Shown here one piece after another: positions 37,685-43,655 of a DNA stretch of 64,000 nt (position 1 is the first letter of the stretch; each line of letters starts with the position of its first letter). Where the stretch lies: NCBI RefSeq assembly GCF_000971215.1, contig NZ_BBMA01000002.1:388749-452748 (forward strand), read 5' to 3'. The translations under genes were made by a program, and so were the position numbers. The notes below the pieces were generated by a model that made no database searches, was not told the DNA's origin, and saw only the letters and a program-made list of their open reading frames with translations. The stretch comes from Demequina silvatica. Lineage in GTDB: Bacteria > Actinomycetota > Actinomycetes > Actinomycetales > Demequinaceae.

Positions 37685-37691
37685 ACGGCCG

Positions 37692-37726
37692 CGAGGCCCC
37701 CGATGTGGCAGTCATCGGGGGCCTCG
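37692..37726. terminator. Bidirectional terminator after the LysR gene
   Basis: The hairpin CGAGGCCCCCGAT / ATCGGGGGCCTCG has a 9-nt loop. It serves the LysR gene on the plus strand and, on the minus strand, could end the proposed small transcript that starts near 37950. Confidence 0.85.
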
Positions 37727-37955
37727 CACGGTCTCGGGGCGGCGTTGGCAGCCGCCGCCCCTACTCGGGAGCCGAGAGGCGTCCACGGCCTCGCTCCGGC
37801 CCGGCCGCGGCCGGTCATCAGGCCCGGAGCTCACCGGCCGCCGTCCAGTCGGGACCCTCGGGGAGGACGAGGGCCGTCGACGCGGGGTGGACGGCGGGGC
37901 CGGCGACCATGGGCGCCTCTCGGCTCGGAGCCCCTGGGGGGCGGGGGCTCCTGGT
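37700..37955 (-). ncRNA. Proposed small regulated transcript (sRNA or mRNA of a 30-aa peptide)
   Basis: A minus-strand promoter-like TATGAAT (37955-37961) lies 14 nt downstream of the response-regulator direct repeat (37976-37993). The predicted RNA of about 250 nt contains hairpins GGAGCCCC/GGGGCTCC (about 37927-37952) and GGGGCGGCG/CGCCGCCCC (about 37736-37761) and ends at the terminator 37692-37726. A 30-codon frame at 37818-37910 has AGAGG before its ATG. No start site is proven. Confidence 0.35.
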
Positions 37956-38156
37956 ATTCATACAATCGTCCGCTCCTGGGAGAACGCTGGGAGCCAGGCG
38001 AGAGGTGCCGGGGAGTGGGCCACGCCGTGCGCTCCTCCACACACGAAGAGCACTCCTCCACACACCACCCCTGATGTGAGCGGGCACATGCTCGGCATGG
38101 GCCCGATCCGGGGTGAAGCGTGTGGAGGAGCGCTCGGCGGAGGTCAGGGCTGCGGG
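37727..38156. other. Gene-poor interval between the LysR and lipoprotein genes
   Basis: About 430 bp between two genes that converge. No protein family is recognisable. It holds the proposed small transcript, a CTCCCAG-type direct repeat, a TACAAT/TATGAAT promoter-like stretch, and three copies of CTCCTCCACAC. Two of these are direct and 21 bp apart (38032, 38053); one is inverted (38120-38130) and can pair with either to form alternative long hairpins after the lipoprotein gene. Confidence 0.6.
37976..37993 (-). promoter_or_regulatory. Direct repeat CTCCCAG-N4-CTCCCAG, site A
   Basis: On the minus strand CTCCCAG occurs twice with an 11-bp period, as expected for a dimer of an OmpR-family regulator. 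It is 14 nt upstream of a TATGAAT sequence. Two further sites of the same form lie upstream of the two-component genes (41450, 41506). Confidence 0.5.
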
Positions 38157-39974
38157 TCAGTCCGCCGTCACGGTGCCCAGCTCGTCACCGCCGGTCGCGC
38201 CCGCGCCGAGCACCAGCCCACCCGCGACCGCGTCGCCCGACACCGCCGCGCCGGTGGTGATGGTGTACGTCTCGCCCGACACGATCGCGTCCGAGGACAG
38301 CACCAGCGACTGCGAGATCTTGCCCGTGGTGAACGTCGCCACCTGGTTGCCGTCCGCGTCCGTCACGGTGATGGGCGTGCCCTCCGCGATCGCGGAGGCG
38401 AACGTGATGGTCAGCACGCCCTGCCCGTCGGCCGTGGGCGACACCAGCATCCCCGAGGCGCCTGACGCCGCGAGCGTGCCGCCGCTCACCGTGAACTCGC
38501 CGTTGACGTCGATCGCGCCGTTGCCGCTGTTGGTGGGGCCGTCGACCACCACGGTGCCGCCGGTCATGGTCGCCGTGCCGTTCGAGTCCAGCCCGTCGCC
38601 GTCGGCGTCGATGTACCAGGTGCCGCCCGAGATCTCGAGCGCACGCCCCTCGGCCGCCTGATCCATGCCGCCCATGCCGCCGGCGACCGTGGTCGCCTCG
38701 GTGCCGTCGGTGGTCCCGTCCGTCGTGGCCGTGGAGGTGGACGATGCGTCGGTCGAGTACGCCGCCGACGTCACCGACGCGGTGGTCGACGTGGAAGTGC
38801 CGGTGTCCGTGGTGGACTCCCCGGGCATCCCGCCGTCCGTGGGACGCTCGGGACGCGTGCCGTCGGACGGCATCTCGCCGCCCATTCCGCCACCCATGTC
38901 GCCGCCGGAGGACGTGCCGCCGGAGACGTTGACGCCGTCGTCGCTCGACTTGATGGTGCCGGTGCCGCCGCTGAGGCGGATGATCCCGCCCTCGAGGCCC
39001 TCGACCGACGTGGTGACGTCCACGGTGCCATCGGAGATGTGCAGGACACCGTCGGTGGTGATGCCGTCGTCGCCGGCGGCGATCGCGAGCTCTCCGCCCT
39101 CGACGGTGACCTGGTTGACCGCGTCGATGCCGTCGACCCCGGAGGTGATGTCGAGCGTGCCTCCGGAGATCCACACCACGCCCACCGCCGTCTCCTCCTC
39201 GAGGGACTCGTTGGTGGACTTCAGGCCGTCGCCCTCGGCGTCGACCGTGATGTCGCCGCCGGAGACCACCAGGTAGTCCTTGCCGCGGATGCCGTCGTCG
39301 GCGGCGGTCACGGAGATCGAGCCCGACTCGATGACCAGGCCGTCCTTGGACCCGATGCCGTCCTCGGCCACCGCGTTCACGGTGAGCGCGCCGTCGCCGG
39401 CGATCCACAGGTCCGCCGTCGAGTACAGGGTCGCGTTGGGGACGTCGGTCTCGGAGTCCGCGGCCGCGGTGGCGTCGGCCGCGTCGGACAGCGTGTTGGC
39501 GGAGCCGTCCTCGAGCCAGATCACCACCTCGTCGGCGCCCTCGATGTCGATCGCCGCGGTGTCCGCGGAGGTGATGTCGACGCCGTCGAGGATCAGGGTG
39601 ACGTCCTCGTCCTCGGTGGCGACCACCACCTGGCCCGCGGACAGGGTGCCGGACAGGCGGTAGGTGCCGCCCTCCGTGATGGTGACGGTGTCGCCGTCGA
39701 CGGTCACGCCGTCCCCGCCGGTCGAGCCGGAGTCGGACAGGGTGATGTCGGTCGCGCCGTCGAGGTCGGCGGAGGTGTCGAGGTCATTGACGCCGAGCTC
39801 GTCATAGGTGGCCTCGGTGAGCTCGGTCGAGGTCGCCGCGGTGGTGGTGGTGGTCGTGGTGGTGTCGTCGCTCGCGGTGGTCGACGTCGCGTCGGAGCCG
39901 GTGGTGGTGGAGCAGCCCGCGAGGAGCAGCGTGCCGGCGAGGATGCCGGCGAAGACGGTGGTGGGCTTGCGCAT
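38157..39974 (-). CDS. Cthe_2159-like carbohydrate-binding lipoprotein
   Basis: 605 aa. A signal peptide with lipobox (LLLAGC, Cys about residue 21) and a Thr/Ser-rich linker are followed by a parallel beta-helix of repeated units of the type GGTLDITSGVDGIDAVNQVTV, with many D-G-I/D-G-L turns. A low-complexity Gly/Met/Ser/Thr insertion (about 345-425) interrupts it. The C-terminal half continues (SGGTWYIDADGDGLDSNG). This matches the Cthe_2159 family (PF14262), which binds acidic polysaccharide or cellulose with calcium. It is the last gene of an operon with a VTC-domain protein and DUF4956 protein, an association seen in other bacteria. Confidence 0.82.
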   Translation of the reverse strand: MRKPTTVFAGILAGTLLLAGCSTTTGSDATSTTASDDTTTTTTTTAATSTELTEATYDELGVNDLDTSADLDGATDITLSDSGSTGGDGVTVDGDTVTITEGGTYRLSGTLSAGQVVVATEDEDVTLILDGVDITSADTAAIDIEGADEVVIWLEDGSANTLSDAADATAAADSETDVPNATLYSTADLWIAGDGALTVNAVAEDGIGSKDGLVIESGSISVTAADDGIRGKDYLVVSGGDITVDAEGDGLKSTNESLEEETAVGVVWISGGTLDITSGVDGIDAVNQVTVEGGELAIAAGDDGITTDGVLHISDGTVDVTTSVEGLEGGIIRLSGGTGTIKSSDDGVNVSGGTSSGGDMGGGMGGEMPSDGTRPERPTDGGMPGESTTDTGTSTSTTASVTSAAYSTDASSTSTATTDGTTDGTEATTVAGGMGGMDQAAEGRALEISGGTWYIDADGDGLDSNGTATMTGGTVVVDGPTNSGNGAIDVNGEFTVSGGTLAASGASGMLVSPTADGQGVLTITFASAIAEGTPITVTDADGNQVATFTTGKISQSLVLSSDAIVSGETYTITTGAAVSGDAVAGGLVLGAGATGGDELGTVTAD

Positions 39975-39989
39975 GATCGTTCGCCTTTC

Positions 39990-40757
39990 TCAGGCCGCGG
40001 TGGCAGCGGTGGGGGTCAGGTGGCGGCGCAGGGTGCGCGCCCAGCGGTTCGCCGGGAGCTCGGGCTGCAGCGCGGCCAGGGTGGTGCAGTACTTGGAGAC
40101 GCGGACCGGGCGGACGCCGCGCGCCCACAGCGCACGGTCCACGTCGCCCGCCCGCAAGGAGGACTTGGTCTCGAGGATGAGCGCCGAGCCGAAGCCCACG
40201 GACTCGCCGCGGGATTCGACCGCGGTGACGTCGCGGTCGATGGTCACGCGGGCGCCGTCGGCGACGAGCGTCGAGCGGCGGTAGCGGGTGGTGAGGACCG
40301 GGCCGAGCGCGTCGACCGCGTCCCCGACCTGGGGGAACGATGCGACGAACGCCCTGGCCTCGCCGTCGAGGCTTCCGCCTCGGGCCACGTGGGCGTCGAT
40401 CCACTCGCGGTGCTTGACGGTCTCGCCCTTCGCGGAGCGGAGCTTGACCTCGATCGCCCTGCCCCCGGTGTCGAGGTAGTCGCGGGTCCGCACCTTGTAG
40501 CGCGCGGGCCGGCGGCGCGCGGCGTCCCGGTAGGACTCCAGGTCGGGGGTGTCGAAGTAGACGGACGCGTAGCCGAAGGCCCGCTCGCCGTCGATCTCGA
40601 GGGCGCGCATCCCGTCCACGGCCCCGAGGACGTCGGCGAGGAGCACCGGGGACACGATGTACTTGCGGTCCACGCGGGTCAGCAGCGCGGCCTCGGCCTC
40701 CAGCTCGGCGAGCGTCACCGCCGGCAGCGCCGCGACCCGCTGCTCCCAGCCGGTCAT
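39990..40757 (-). CDS. VTC-domain polyphosphate polymerase-like protein
   Basis: 255 aa. VTC-family tunnel-fold motifs are visible: RVDRKYIVSP near the N-terminus, YASVYFDTPDLESYRDA, RPARYKVRTRDYLDTGGRAIEVKLRSAKGETVKHRE, LTTRYRRSTL and ILETKSS. These supply the basic and acidic residues that bind polyphosphate and metal in yeast Vtc4. By family it may polymerise or bind polyphosphate; this bacterial subgroup is not well characterised. Its ATG overlaps the stop of the DUF4956 gene, so the two proteins are made together and may form a membrane complex. Confidence 0.85.
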   Translation of the reverse strand: MTGWEQRVAALPAVTLAELEAEAALLTRVDRKYIVSPVLLADVLGAVDGMRALEIDGERAFGYASVYFDTPDLESYRDAARRRPARYKVRTRDYLDTGGRAIEVKLRSAKGETVKHREWIDAHVARGGSLDGEARAFVASFPQVGDAVDALGPVLTTRYRRSTLVADGARVTIDRDVTAVESRGESVGFGSALILETKSSLRAGDVDRALWARGVRPVRVSKYCTTLAALQPELPANRWARTLRRHLTPTAATAA

Positions 40758-41377
40758 CGCGCGACCTCGGTGGCGACGGGGCGCTCGGCGGCCAGCGAGC
40801 CGTCGAACGACGCCTCCGCGCCAAGCGCCGGCTTCGCGAGCAGCGTGTAGCGGACGTCCACCATGGTCGACTCGGTGAGGAGGTCCACCCGACGGATGGT
40901 GACGCGGTTGATCTCCGCGCCCAGGAGCAGCGCGAGGTGGTTCGCCGCCGCCTCCTCGGTGGTGAAGGCGCGGTCCAGGACCATCTGCTGCTGGCGGCTG
41001 CGGGAGAACAGGCGGGGGTTGTCGCCCACCAGGATGACGCCGAGCAGCACGGCCATCAGCGTGAAGCTGAGCGACGCGGACAGCGCGGGGAAGCCGCCCA
41101 GCAGGCCCAGCGCGATCGCGGTGAAGTAGTACGCGATCTCCGCGTGGTCCATCTCGGTCGAGCGCAGGCGGATGATCGACAGCACCGCGAAGATGCCCAT
41201 GCCGAAGCCGAGCGAGATGTCCGCGTTGGTCATCGCGTACGTCACTCCCATGACGCCGACGTTGATCGACAGGAACGCGACGATGAGGTCGCGCCGGCGA
41301 TGACGCGGGAAGTAGAGGCCGAAGACGAGGATGGAGATCGCGATCAGGTCGGCCGCGATGAAGGCGTAGTAGGGCAT
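40754..41377 (-). CDS. DUF4956 membrane protein
   Basis: 207 aa. It has about four membrane spans in the first 130 residues (AFIAADLIAISILVFGLYF; NVGVMGVTYAM; GFGMGIFAVLSIIRLRSTEM; ALGLLGGFPALSASLSFTLMAVLLGVILVG) and a soluble C-terminal domain. The GFGMGIFAVLSIIRLR stretch typifies DUF4956, which is repeatedly encoded beside VTC-domain proteins. Start at 41377 preferred because AGAGG lies 5 nt upstream. First gene of the operon, preceded by a direct-repeat site (41450-41467). Confidence 0.85.
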   Translation of the reverse strand: MPYYAFIAADLIAISILVFGLYFPRHRRRDLIVAFLSINVGVMGVTYAMTNADISLGFGMGIFAVLSIIRLRSTEMDHAEIAYYFTAIALGLLGGFPALSASLSFTLMAVLLGVILVGDNPRLFSRSRQQQMVLDRAFTTEEAAANHLALLLGAEINRVTIRRVDLLTESTMVDVRYTLLAKPALGAEASFDGSLAAERPVATEVAR

Positions 41378-41449
41378 GAGCACCTCTCAGGTCGGGGGCG
41401 TCGGAGGGGCGCTCCGGGCCTGTGTTCACCTCGAGTTAACCGACGGGAC

Positions 41450-41467
41450 CTGGGAGAAGACTGGGAG
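41450..41467 (-). promoter_or_regulatory. Direct repeat CTCCCAG-N4-CTCCCAG, site B
   Basis: The minus strand reads CTCCCAG twice with an 11-bp period, about 10 nt upstream of TTAACT, in front of the DUF4956-VTC-lipoprotein operon. Same orientation relative to transcription as sites A and C. Confidence 0.6.
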
Positions 41468-41505
41468 GGGCGCGAGAGTTGACCGGGGACGCCGCTCCCC
41501 GTCCA

Positions 41506-41523
41506 CGCCCAGCGGCCTCCCAG
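41506..41523 (+). promoter_or_regulatory. Direct repeat CGCCCAG-N4-CTCCCAG, site C
   Basis: The plus strand reads CGCCCAG-CGGC-CTCCCAG, 11-bp period, about 21 nt upstream of the GATACT -10 of the response-regulator gene. It suggests autoregulation. Confidence 0.55.
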
Positions 41524-41556
41524 CGAATGCTCAGGTTGAACCGCGATACTGGGCGC

Positions 41557-42240
41557 ATGCCTGAACGCCGCATCCTCGTGGTCGATGACGAGGACAACCT
41601 CCGCACCATGCTCTGCGCCGCCCTGCGCTATGCGGGCTACGACGTCTCCGAGGCCTCCGACGGCCAGGCCGGGCTGAAGGCCGCGCGCGAGCAGCGCCCC
41701 GATCTGATCGTGCTGGACGTGATGATGCCGGGCCTCGACGGCTTCGCGGTGACGCGCCGCCTGCGCGAGTCCGGCGACCGCACGCCCATCATCTTCCTCA
41801 CCGCGCGCGACAGCTCGCAGGACAAGGTCGAGGGCCTGACGATCGGCGGCGACGACTACCTCGAGAAGCCGTTCAACCTCGACGAGCTGGTCGCCCGCGT
41901 CGAGGCCGTGTCCCGCCGCGTCGAGCGCGCCCCGAGCGCCTCCGACGTCTACCGGGTCGCGGACCTCGAGCTCGACGACGTCGCGCACCGCGTGACCCGC
42001 GCGGGCGAGGACGTCCAGCTGTCCCCCACCGAGTACAACCTGCTGCGCCACCTCATGCAGAACACCGGCCGCGTCCTGTCGCGCGGCCAGCTGCTCGAGG
42101 GCGTGTGGGGCTACTCCCGCGACGACGACCCGGGCGTGGTGGAGACCTACATCGGCTACGTGCGACGCAAGGTCGACACCGTCGACCCCAAGCTCATCCA
42201 CACGATCCGTGGGGTGGGATACACGCTGAGGCTGCCGTGA
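41557..42240 (+). CDS. OmpR-family response regulator (TrcR/PhoP-like)
   Basis: 227 aa. The receiver domain has the acidic pair Asp10-Asp11 (ILVVDDEDN), the phosphoacceptor Asp54 (IVLDVMMPG), Thr (FLTARD) and Lys in LEKPFN. The winged helix (LSPTEYNLLRHLMQNTGRVLSRGQLLEGVWGY...VVETYIGYVRRKVD) is complete. GATACT, 6 nt before the ATG, is the likely -10. The stop overlaps the kinase GTG by 4 bp. The adjacent direct repeats suggest that it controls itself and the divergent DUF4956 operon. Confidence 0.93.
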   Translation: MPERRILVVDDEDNLRTMLCAALRYAGYDVSEASDGQAGLKAAREQRPDLIVLDVMMPGLDGFAVTRRLRESGDRTPIIFLTARDSSQDKVEGLTIGGDDYLEKPFNLDELVARVEAVSRRVERAPSASDVYRVADLELDDVAHRVTRAGEDVQLSPTEYNLLRHLMQNTGRVLSRGQLLEGVWGYSRDDDPGVVETYIGYVRRKVDTVDPKLIHTIRGVGYTLRLP

Positions 42241-43655
42241 CCGCTTCCCCGGGCATGAGCCTCCGCTCGCGCCTCCTCATCGGGCTCGGCGCGATCGCCG
42301 CGATCGCGGTCGCCGTCGCGATCGCGGTCACCGGCGTCACCCACTCGCACCTGGTCACCCAGATGGACGAGCGCCTCGCCTCCTTCTCCGGCCCGGTCGA
42401 CTACGACCGCAAGCCCACGCTCGCGGACTCCGACGACGTCCAGGGCGAGTACGCCCGCCCGTCCGAGGCGTGGCGCGCGGTCCTCGCGTCCAACGGCGAG
42501 GTCCAGGTGCTGTTCGTGCCGAACACCACGGACTCGTCCGACGCCCGGCCCCTCATCGAGGCGGCCGAGATGCCCGCGACCGGCACGTCCTACTTCACCG
42601 TCGCATCGTCCGACGGCCAGGGTGAGTGGCGCGTGCTCGCGCGCGCCACCACCGTCGGCACGGACCTCACCGCGCTGCCGCTCGACTCCGTCGAGGCCAC
42701 CACGCACCGGCTGATCCTCATCGAGGCGATCGGCATCACGTTCATCCTCGCCGCGCTCGCGGTGGTGGGCTGGTGGGTGATCAGGCTCGGCATCGCGCCC
42801 ATGCGCCGCATGGTCGACGCGTCGACACGCATCGCGGAGGGCGACCTCGACGTCCGCCTCGAGGGCAGGGGCCGCGGCAGCGAGTCCGCGGAGCTCGCCG
42901 CCTCGCTCAACACCATGGTCGACACGCTCACCGCCTCGCTCGAGGAGCGCGAGCGGTCGGAGGCGCGCCTGCGCGAGTTCGTCGCGGACGCCTCGCATGA
43001 GCTGCGCACGCCGCTCACCACCGTGCTCGGCTATGCGGAGCTGTACCGCCGCGGGGCGCTCAAGCGCGACGAGGACGTGGCGGACGCGTGGGCCCGCACC
43101 GAGGCCGAGGCGAGCCGCATGCGCCGCCTGGTCGAGGACATGCTCGAGCTCGCGCGCTACGACGCGGAGCCCCAGCTGTCCCCCATCGCGCTCGACCTCT
43201 CGCACGTGTGCGGCGAGGTGGTGCGCGACGCGACCGCTGCCCGCGAGGGCGTGACCTTCACCCTCGACGCGCCCGCCCCGGTCACCATCGAGGGCGACCC
43301 CGACCGCCTGCGCCAGGCGCTCATCAACGTGGTCACCAACGCTGCCGTGCATGGCGGCTCGCACGTCACCGTGCGCGTGACCAGGGACGATGCGCTGGCC
43401 AGGGTGGACATCGAGGACGACGGCCCCGGGATGGCACCGGAGGTGGCGGCGCGCGCCACCGAGAGGTTCGTGCGCGGCGACCACTCGCGGACCCGTGCGA
43501 CGGGCGGCTCGGGCCTGGGCCTCGCCATCACCGCCGCGATCGTCTCGGTGCACGGCGGCACGCTCGCGGTCGACTCGACCGAGGGCGAGGGCACCACGGT
43601 GAGCCTCGCGTTCCCGGCGGCGCCTCAGCCGGCGGAGGAGACGGTCGCCTCGTAG
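42237..43655 (+). CDS. Sensor histidine kinase
   Basis: 472 aa, GTG start overlapping the regulator stop (GTGA). Two membrane spans (about 11-35 and 160-182) enclose an extracytoplasmic sensor of about 120 residues. A HAMP domain follows (IAPMRRMVDASTRIAEGDLDVRLEG). The dimerisation helix has the phospho-accepting His (DASHELRTPLTT, about residue 254). The ATP domain has N box (NVVTNAAVHGG), G1 (DIEDDGPGM) and G2 (GGSGLGLAITAAI). Similar in build to TrcS/PhoR kinases. The last 31 bp overlap the convergent tetR gene. Confidence 0.95.
   Translation: MTASPGMSLRSRLLIGLGAIAAIAVAVAIAVTGVTHSHLVTQMDERLASFSGPVDYDRKPTLADSDDVQGEYARPSEAWRAVLASNGEVQVLFVPNTTDSSDARPLIEAAEMPATGTSYFTVASSDGQGEWRVLARATTVGTDLTALPLDSVEATTHRLILIEAIGITFILAALAVVGWWVIRLGIAPMRRMVDASTRIAEGDLDVRLEGRGRGSESAELAASLNTMVDTLTASLEERERSEARLREFVADASHELRTPLTTVLGYAELYRRGALKRDEDVADAWARTEAEASRMRRLVEDMLELARYDAEPQLSPIALDLSHVCGEVVRDATAAREGVTFTLDAPAPVTIEGDPDRLRQALINVVTNAAVHGGSHVTVRVTRDDALARVDIEDDGPGMAPEVAARATERFVRGDHSRTRATGGSGLGLAITAAIVSVHGGTLAVDSTEGEGTTVSLAFPAAPQPAEETVAS

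Follow-up and report, generated by a model that had tools for sequence, protein, structure and literature searches.

Introduction

The response regulator PhoP of M. tuberculosis recognizes the box TCACAGC-N4-TCACAGC, whose 4-bp spacer is strict, and it binds more tightly when three or four repeats are present. In its recognition helix, Asn212 and Ser216 hold a water molecule that contacts the third base of TCACAG (PMC4832192). The motif is mostly oriented in the direction of the gene, and one PhoP-dependent product is Mcr7, a structured noncoding RNA proposed to block tatC translation through a loop acting on the ribosome binding site (PMC4038636). In E. coli, the pho box of PhoB is CTGTCAT-(A/T)4-CTGTCAT (quoted in PMC4832192).

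Here, we compare with these systems a locus of Demequina silvatica lying in a 64-kb stretch of DNA, here called the window. The original prediction linked a response regulator, a divergent DUF4956 operon, and an unannotated RNA through a shared direct-repeat operator. From sequence comparison, we consider it probable that the PhoP-like regulator (41557–42240) binds these repeats and activates its own gene and that of its kinase, the DUF4956 operon, a few envelope or stress genes, and a structured RNA. No account of a DUF4956/VTC/CotH two-component system or of a Demequina small RNA was found in the literature searched, which included few subscription journals.

Results

The regulator gene (41557–42240, + strand) encodes a receiver domain and a winged helix (Response_reg and Trans_reg_C) and is followed by a sensor histidine kinase gene (HAMP, HisKA, HATPase_c; 42237–43655, +). 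Against solved structures, the regulator matches M. tuberculosis PhoP best (251 bits), followed by PrrA (189) and MtrA (174), and 96 of the 99 genomes sampled from the order contain a regulator of this type (E ≤ 1e-60). The minus-strand operon comprises genes for a DUF4956 membrane protein (40754–41383), a VTC-domain, polyphosphate-polymerase-like protein (39990–40760), and, as its last member, a Cthe_2159-domain secreted protein (38157–39974). The regulator, kinase, DUF4956, and VTC genes occur together in all 32 Demequina loci (10 kb each), and a Cthe_2159 match is found in 29 of them. In other families, seven of eight DUF4956 loci have no such regulator nearby, and the eighth has one that is 41% identical; the motif scan of these loci (L111–L118) returned one weak match, in L118, and otherwise none. 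The Cthe_2159 gene is separated from the RNA promoter by an inverted repeat, GCGCTCCTCCACAC ... GTGTGGAGGAGCGC (38029–38133), read from the sequence as a possible terminator. Relatives have other hairpins in its place.

Two copies of CTCCCAG-N4-CTCCCAG on the minus strand had been reported, one before the DUF4956 operon (41450–41467) and one before the third transcript (37976–37993); both are exact, at those coordinates and on that strand. The copy described as near-identical, at 41506–41523 (+), differs by one mismatch. The distances from the operators to −10-like hexamers, 10, 10, and 21 nt, likewise agree with the original prediction. The operon operator is followed, after N10, by TTAACT (41439–41434), and the third operator, the predicted RNA promoter, by TTGTAT (37960–37965, −), also 10 nt away. 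The regulator promoter carries a longer operator (41495–41534, +) of four half-sites with an 11-bp period, CTCCCCG at 41495, CGCCCAG at 41506, CTCCCAG at 41517, and TGCTCAG at 41528, a layout conserved before related regulators in other families. Its distance of 21 nt is therefore 11 + 10, because the degenerate extra half-site TGCTCAG (41528–41534) ends 10 nt before GATACT (41545–41550, +), a spacing that relatives share. The regulator ATG at 41557 (+) lies 6 nt past GATACT, and its mRNA is predicted to be leaderless. A sharper rule thus emerges: tandem TC[C/T/A]CAG half-sites with an 11-bp period and with 10 nt between the last one and a −10-like hexamer. Sequence comparison supports an operator that is an array of 2–4 half-sites with a constant N10 spacing before the hexamer.

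In the window, the motif occurs six times at ≤2 mismatches against 0.90 expected, and none of 100 shuffles reached six. A genome scan had been proposed as a check. In the 2.92-Mb genome, the exact motif is found at only two places, both at this locus, and one-mismatch motifs at six. At ≤2 mismatches there are 40 places, and a reversed control pattern also gives 40 (16 + 24), so that two-mismatch sites, taken together, are at background level and weak matches alone say little. Seven of the eight strongest places (exact and one-mismatch) are intergenic and oriented toward the downstream gene, as judged from the window gene list for the three window sites and from a crude self-made gene finder for the others; the remaining place, L006, lies inside a gene. 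The N10 spacing holds directly or as stated at three of these eight (37976, 41450, and L004) and through a further half-site spotted by eye at another three (the regulator, L003, and L005); the DedA site, L008, is off by one base, at 11 nt, and L006 has no such spacing. Among the two-mismatch loci, 8 of the 22 examined are intergenic, and 10 further two-mismatch places fall outside that set. The NAGPA, MoxR-like, MgtE-like, and L022 genes were dropped as candidate regulon members, their two-mismatch sites being at background (40 vs 40).

Inclusion of the spacing gives a more selective search. In the same genome, TCNCAG-N5-TCNCAG-N15-T has five matches and the control none; the five precede the DUF4956 operon, the RNA, an FKBP lipoprotein gene, a SigE-like ECF sigma factor gene, and a CotH-like gene. 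A looser spaced pattern gives 10 matches against 4 in the control and adds the regulator and HlyD genes. The assignment of HlyD is based on this looser pattern (10 vs 4) and on similar sites in five relatives, of which L064 alone was read. One-mismatch sites were found upstream of HtrA-like, DedA, and FMN-binding genes. Across the genus, 23 of 44 Demequina genomes together contain 53 matches to CTCYCAG-N4-CTCYCAG-N15-T, whose reverse has none. Sorted by coordinates (by site-sequence similarity for CotH-like and HlyD), these are 12 DUF4956, 5 regulator, 11 third-site, 7 CotH-like, 5 HlyD, 4 CotH lipoprotein, and 9 other sites. A start codon lies 6–7 nt past the hexamer in 5/5 regulator loci and in 5/6 CotH-type loci (the exception is L086, where another frame was listed first), from which leaderless mRNAs are predicted. 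The DUF4956/regulator intergenic region contains a scored site in all 32 Demequina loci, a weak one in L124; with the same hand-made score, used without shuffles, 40 loci of 10 kb gave nine matches outside regulatory regions by an eye count, plus the L118 match.

The link among the regulator, the DUF4956-VTC operon, and the third transcript is therefore supported comparatively, and the predicted regulon extends to several further loci. It appears small: the regulator and kinase, DUF4956-VTC-Cthe_2159, RNA, CotH-like, SigE-like, FKBP, and HlyD genes are predicted members, and the HtrA-like, DedA, and FMN-binding genes are less certain ones. One locus, L028:1025-1477(−), encodes a 150-aa CotH-type protein with a partial match to the CotH profile (144–264 of 322) and a strong site before its start. 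In several HtrA-like upstream regions (L215–L234), CTC-type triplets with the 11-bp period appear by eye to be kept where CTCCCAG has decayed.

The array is not confined to Demequina. Of 20 related regulator promoters from 15 other families (L174–L193), 19 show the same layout, against 0 of 1000 mononucleotide shuffles; the layout scored consisted of three TCNCAG-like half-sites with an 11-bp period (at least 10 of 15 letters), N10, NANNNT, 5–8 nt, and ATG or GTG, the choice of start being free in real and shuffled sequences alike. The −10-like hexamer and, probably, the leaderless start are shared by these regulator genes (19/20). The reading of the repeats as an OmpR-family direct-repeat operator is thus backed by comparative evidence, and, judged from these promoters, this PhoP-type autoregulatory array is old and shared by many families.

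The predicted structured RNA extends over 37689–37953 (−), its start being estimated from the −10-like hexamer and its end being hairpin H4. The region 37955–37690 folds at −189.3 kcal/mol (z −8.97) into a C-loop hairpin (H1), a long helix (P1), arm A with a CCUCC loop, arm B, and hairpins H3 and H4 with CUGCCA loops. P1 pairs GAGCCGAGAGGCGCCCATGG (37907–37926, −) with CCGTGGACGCCTCTCGGCTC (37769–37788, −). H3 spans 37736–37761 (−), and H4 (37691–37727, −) is likely a terminator common to a convergent LysR-type gene. The region past the third site is conserved, at an unchanged position, in ten Demequina genomes. All ten predicted folds contain the CCUCC loop (any CCUCC loop occurs in 55/600 shuffles), and nine contain two CUGCCA loops (0/600 shuffles). 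The consensus structure has 80 pairs with 97.1% of cells paired, and sliding destroys the signal. Changes on both sides are seen at 13 pairs vs 5.2 in shuffles, none of 500 reaching 13, a count for which the structure was taken from the same sequences and which related sequences tend to inflate. P1 is invariant, so that covariation is uninformative about this helix.

With a covariance model and the stricter filters applied to searches spanning more than 40 genomes, the RNA was found once per genome in 10 of the 44 Demequina genomes, and the 92 genomes searched from the rest of the order gave no match. BLAST (E ≤ 0.01) matched 27 of the 44 genomes, 10 at full length and the remainder short and weak. 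A pattern scan for the P1 core over 84,980 species, one genome each, in a sample that may exclude the window's own genome, returned nine records, all from Demequina. A search of Rfam 15, whose families presumably include the actinobacterial 6C RNA, gave no credible match, the best E values being 0.3 and 2, far under gathering scores. These comparisons support a structured RNA that belongs to a single clade of Demequina. The unannotated RNA of the original prediction is well supported as an RNA of about 265 nt by its strong fold, covariation, and conservation, and its transcription is inferred from the promoter. In three other genomes, G040, G026, and G022, the third-site promoter is kept and is followed by different predicted short structured transcripts; as a set, the promoter positions are L100:5878, L101:5532, and L105:4120. 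CCUCC occurs in a C-rich loop of G022 and in a loop of G040, and both G026 and G040 retain an H4-like hairpin.

Discussion

The sites, their spacing, their conservation, and the RNA structure are established by comparison, and from them we infer binding and activation by the regulator and action of the RNA. We propose that the phosphorylated regulator binds head to tail, with one subunit per TC[C/T/A]CAG half-site, and would activate promoters whose −10 is located 10 nt past the last half-site. At this distance, it would replace the −35 contact, as PhoB does. The PhoB box is itself placed 10 nt before the −10, and tandem OmpR-family regulators adjoining the −10 suggest PhoB-like activation. 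The regulator would thereby turn on its own leaderless gene and the kinase, the divergent DUF4956-VTC-Cthe_2159 operon, a few envelope or stress genes, and the structured RNA of about 265 nt, which would be made from a separate promoter beyond the DUF4956 operon. The most likely action of this RNA is in trans, by way of its loops.

The same sites could be used by another OmpR-family regulator. It is improbable, in our view, that they are real and belong to a different member of the family, such as an MprA-like protein, rather than to the adjacent gene. In its favor, SigE-like and HtrA-like genes are among the predicted targets, and genes of these kinds are targets of MprAB in C. glutamicum (PMC12113857). 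However, in Demequina and in 19 of the 20 other-family loci, the adjacent regulator has the array before its own gene. In addition, the motif given there for C. glutamicum MprA, TKTTAAGAAM (PMC12113857), is not matched by the half-sites when compared by eye. The MprAB reading was put aside on the evidence of this motif and of the autoregulatory array that precedes the gene for the PhoP-like protein.

Two other explanations of the third transcript were considered. It might be the mRNA of a small protein (MVAG..., ATG at about 37910, −) whose start is held in P1, the structure then controlling translation; an SD-like GAGAGG and the ATG are indeed invariant in 10 sequences, and a 30-aa frame is present in the window. 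However, the frames from this ATG are 26, 30, 67, 80, or 100 aa long and diverge past the first residues, and the core lengths of 155–159 nt disrupt the frame. We rejected this reading, which has little likelihood, because the frames are not conserved. Slightly less remote, though still unlikely, is a DNA-level dyad with a shared terminator and no functional RNA, in which conservation would reflect an inverted repeat bound by protein. Such a dyad would fit the invariance of both P1 arms and the retention of the H4-like hairpin in G026 and G040, which miss the remainder. It is opposed by compensatory changes in the arm and hairpin helices and by the conservation of both a dedicated promoter and the loop sequences.

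By analogy with Mcr7, this RNA may act in trans through its loops (CCUCC, C-rich, and twin CUGCCA), a possibility that we regard as tentative. A limited search of 72 start regions, obtained with a crude gene finder, and of the HtrA-like loci gave no convincing target, and the mode of action therefore keeps this tentative standing. Kissing of the H4 loop with GUGGCAG in the HtrA-like leader was rejected; the gene ranks 3rd of 72 for H4, but among the leaders visible, only that of the window's genome has TGGCAG. The leader is visible in about 15 of 20 HtrA-like loci, a count without L217, L220, L229, L230, and L231, which were not judgeable, and TGGCAG lies inside the gene in L221 and L233. The arm-A loop was likewise discarded as unspecific against start regions, the SigE-like gene ranking 6th of 72 and the operon's own three genes 54th, 56th, and 61st. 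A more speculative proposal, which we doubt more than trans action itself, is that a PhoP-type system acquired the single-copy RNA as a post-transcriptional arm in one Demequina clade. Its C-rich, anti-Shine-Dalgarno-like loops would damp leader-bearing mRNAs under envelope stress, and leaderless regulon members (the regulator and CotH-type genes) would escape.

Comparison with Known Systems

The significance of the locus lies in a concrete candidate operator code for a regulator type found in 96 of the 99 sampled genomes, in tying DUF4956, VTC, and CotH-type genes, whose role is unclear, to one regulatory circuit, and in the addition of a structured RNA that a PhoP-type regulator probably controls. 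Confirmation would mean that RNAs controlled in this way arose on at least two occasions, and a regulator known chiefly from a pathogen would gain a simple model in Demequina.

Like M. tuberculosis PhoP, the Demequina regulator appears to use 7-bp direct repeats with a 4-bp spacer, in arrays that may exceed two repeats, upstream of its predicted genes, and it keeps Glu215, Tyr217, Tyr220, Arg222, and Arg223 of the recognition helix. Among the base-contacting positions of helix alpha8, Val213, Glu215, Tyr217, and Tyr220 are kept, Asn212 is replaced by Gly, and Ser216 by Thr. In contrast to TCACAG, the third base is mostly C or T in Demequina. Of 44 readable sequences from the genus and order, 43 carry Gly, Ala, or Ser at position 212, and position 216 is Thr in 26/26 Demequina and Ser in 18/18 other sequences; these counts are without L096, L097, L099, L103, L119, L124, L185, and L192, from which the regulator was unextracted, and L129, which was misread. 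The half-site thus seems to depart from that of PhoP mainly at the third base, and the changes at residues 212 and 216 form a correlation that is suggestive but short of proof.

The pho box of E. coli PhoB shares the 7 + 4 layout but has another half-site sequence, and among solved structures PhoB is less closely related to the regulator (about 97 bits, receiver domain). Mcr7, compared by description, resembles the Demequina RNA as a structured RNA under a PhoP-type regulator, a control that is probable for the latter. Mcr7 occupies another genomic place and has one 33-nt loop, whereas the Demequina RNA is predicted to have several small loops. As far as these sequence comparisons reach, the array itself is shared and known in type, and the Demequina regulon with its structured RNA is the new part.
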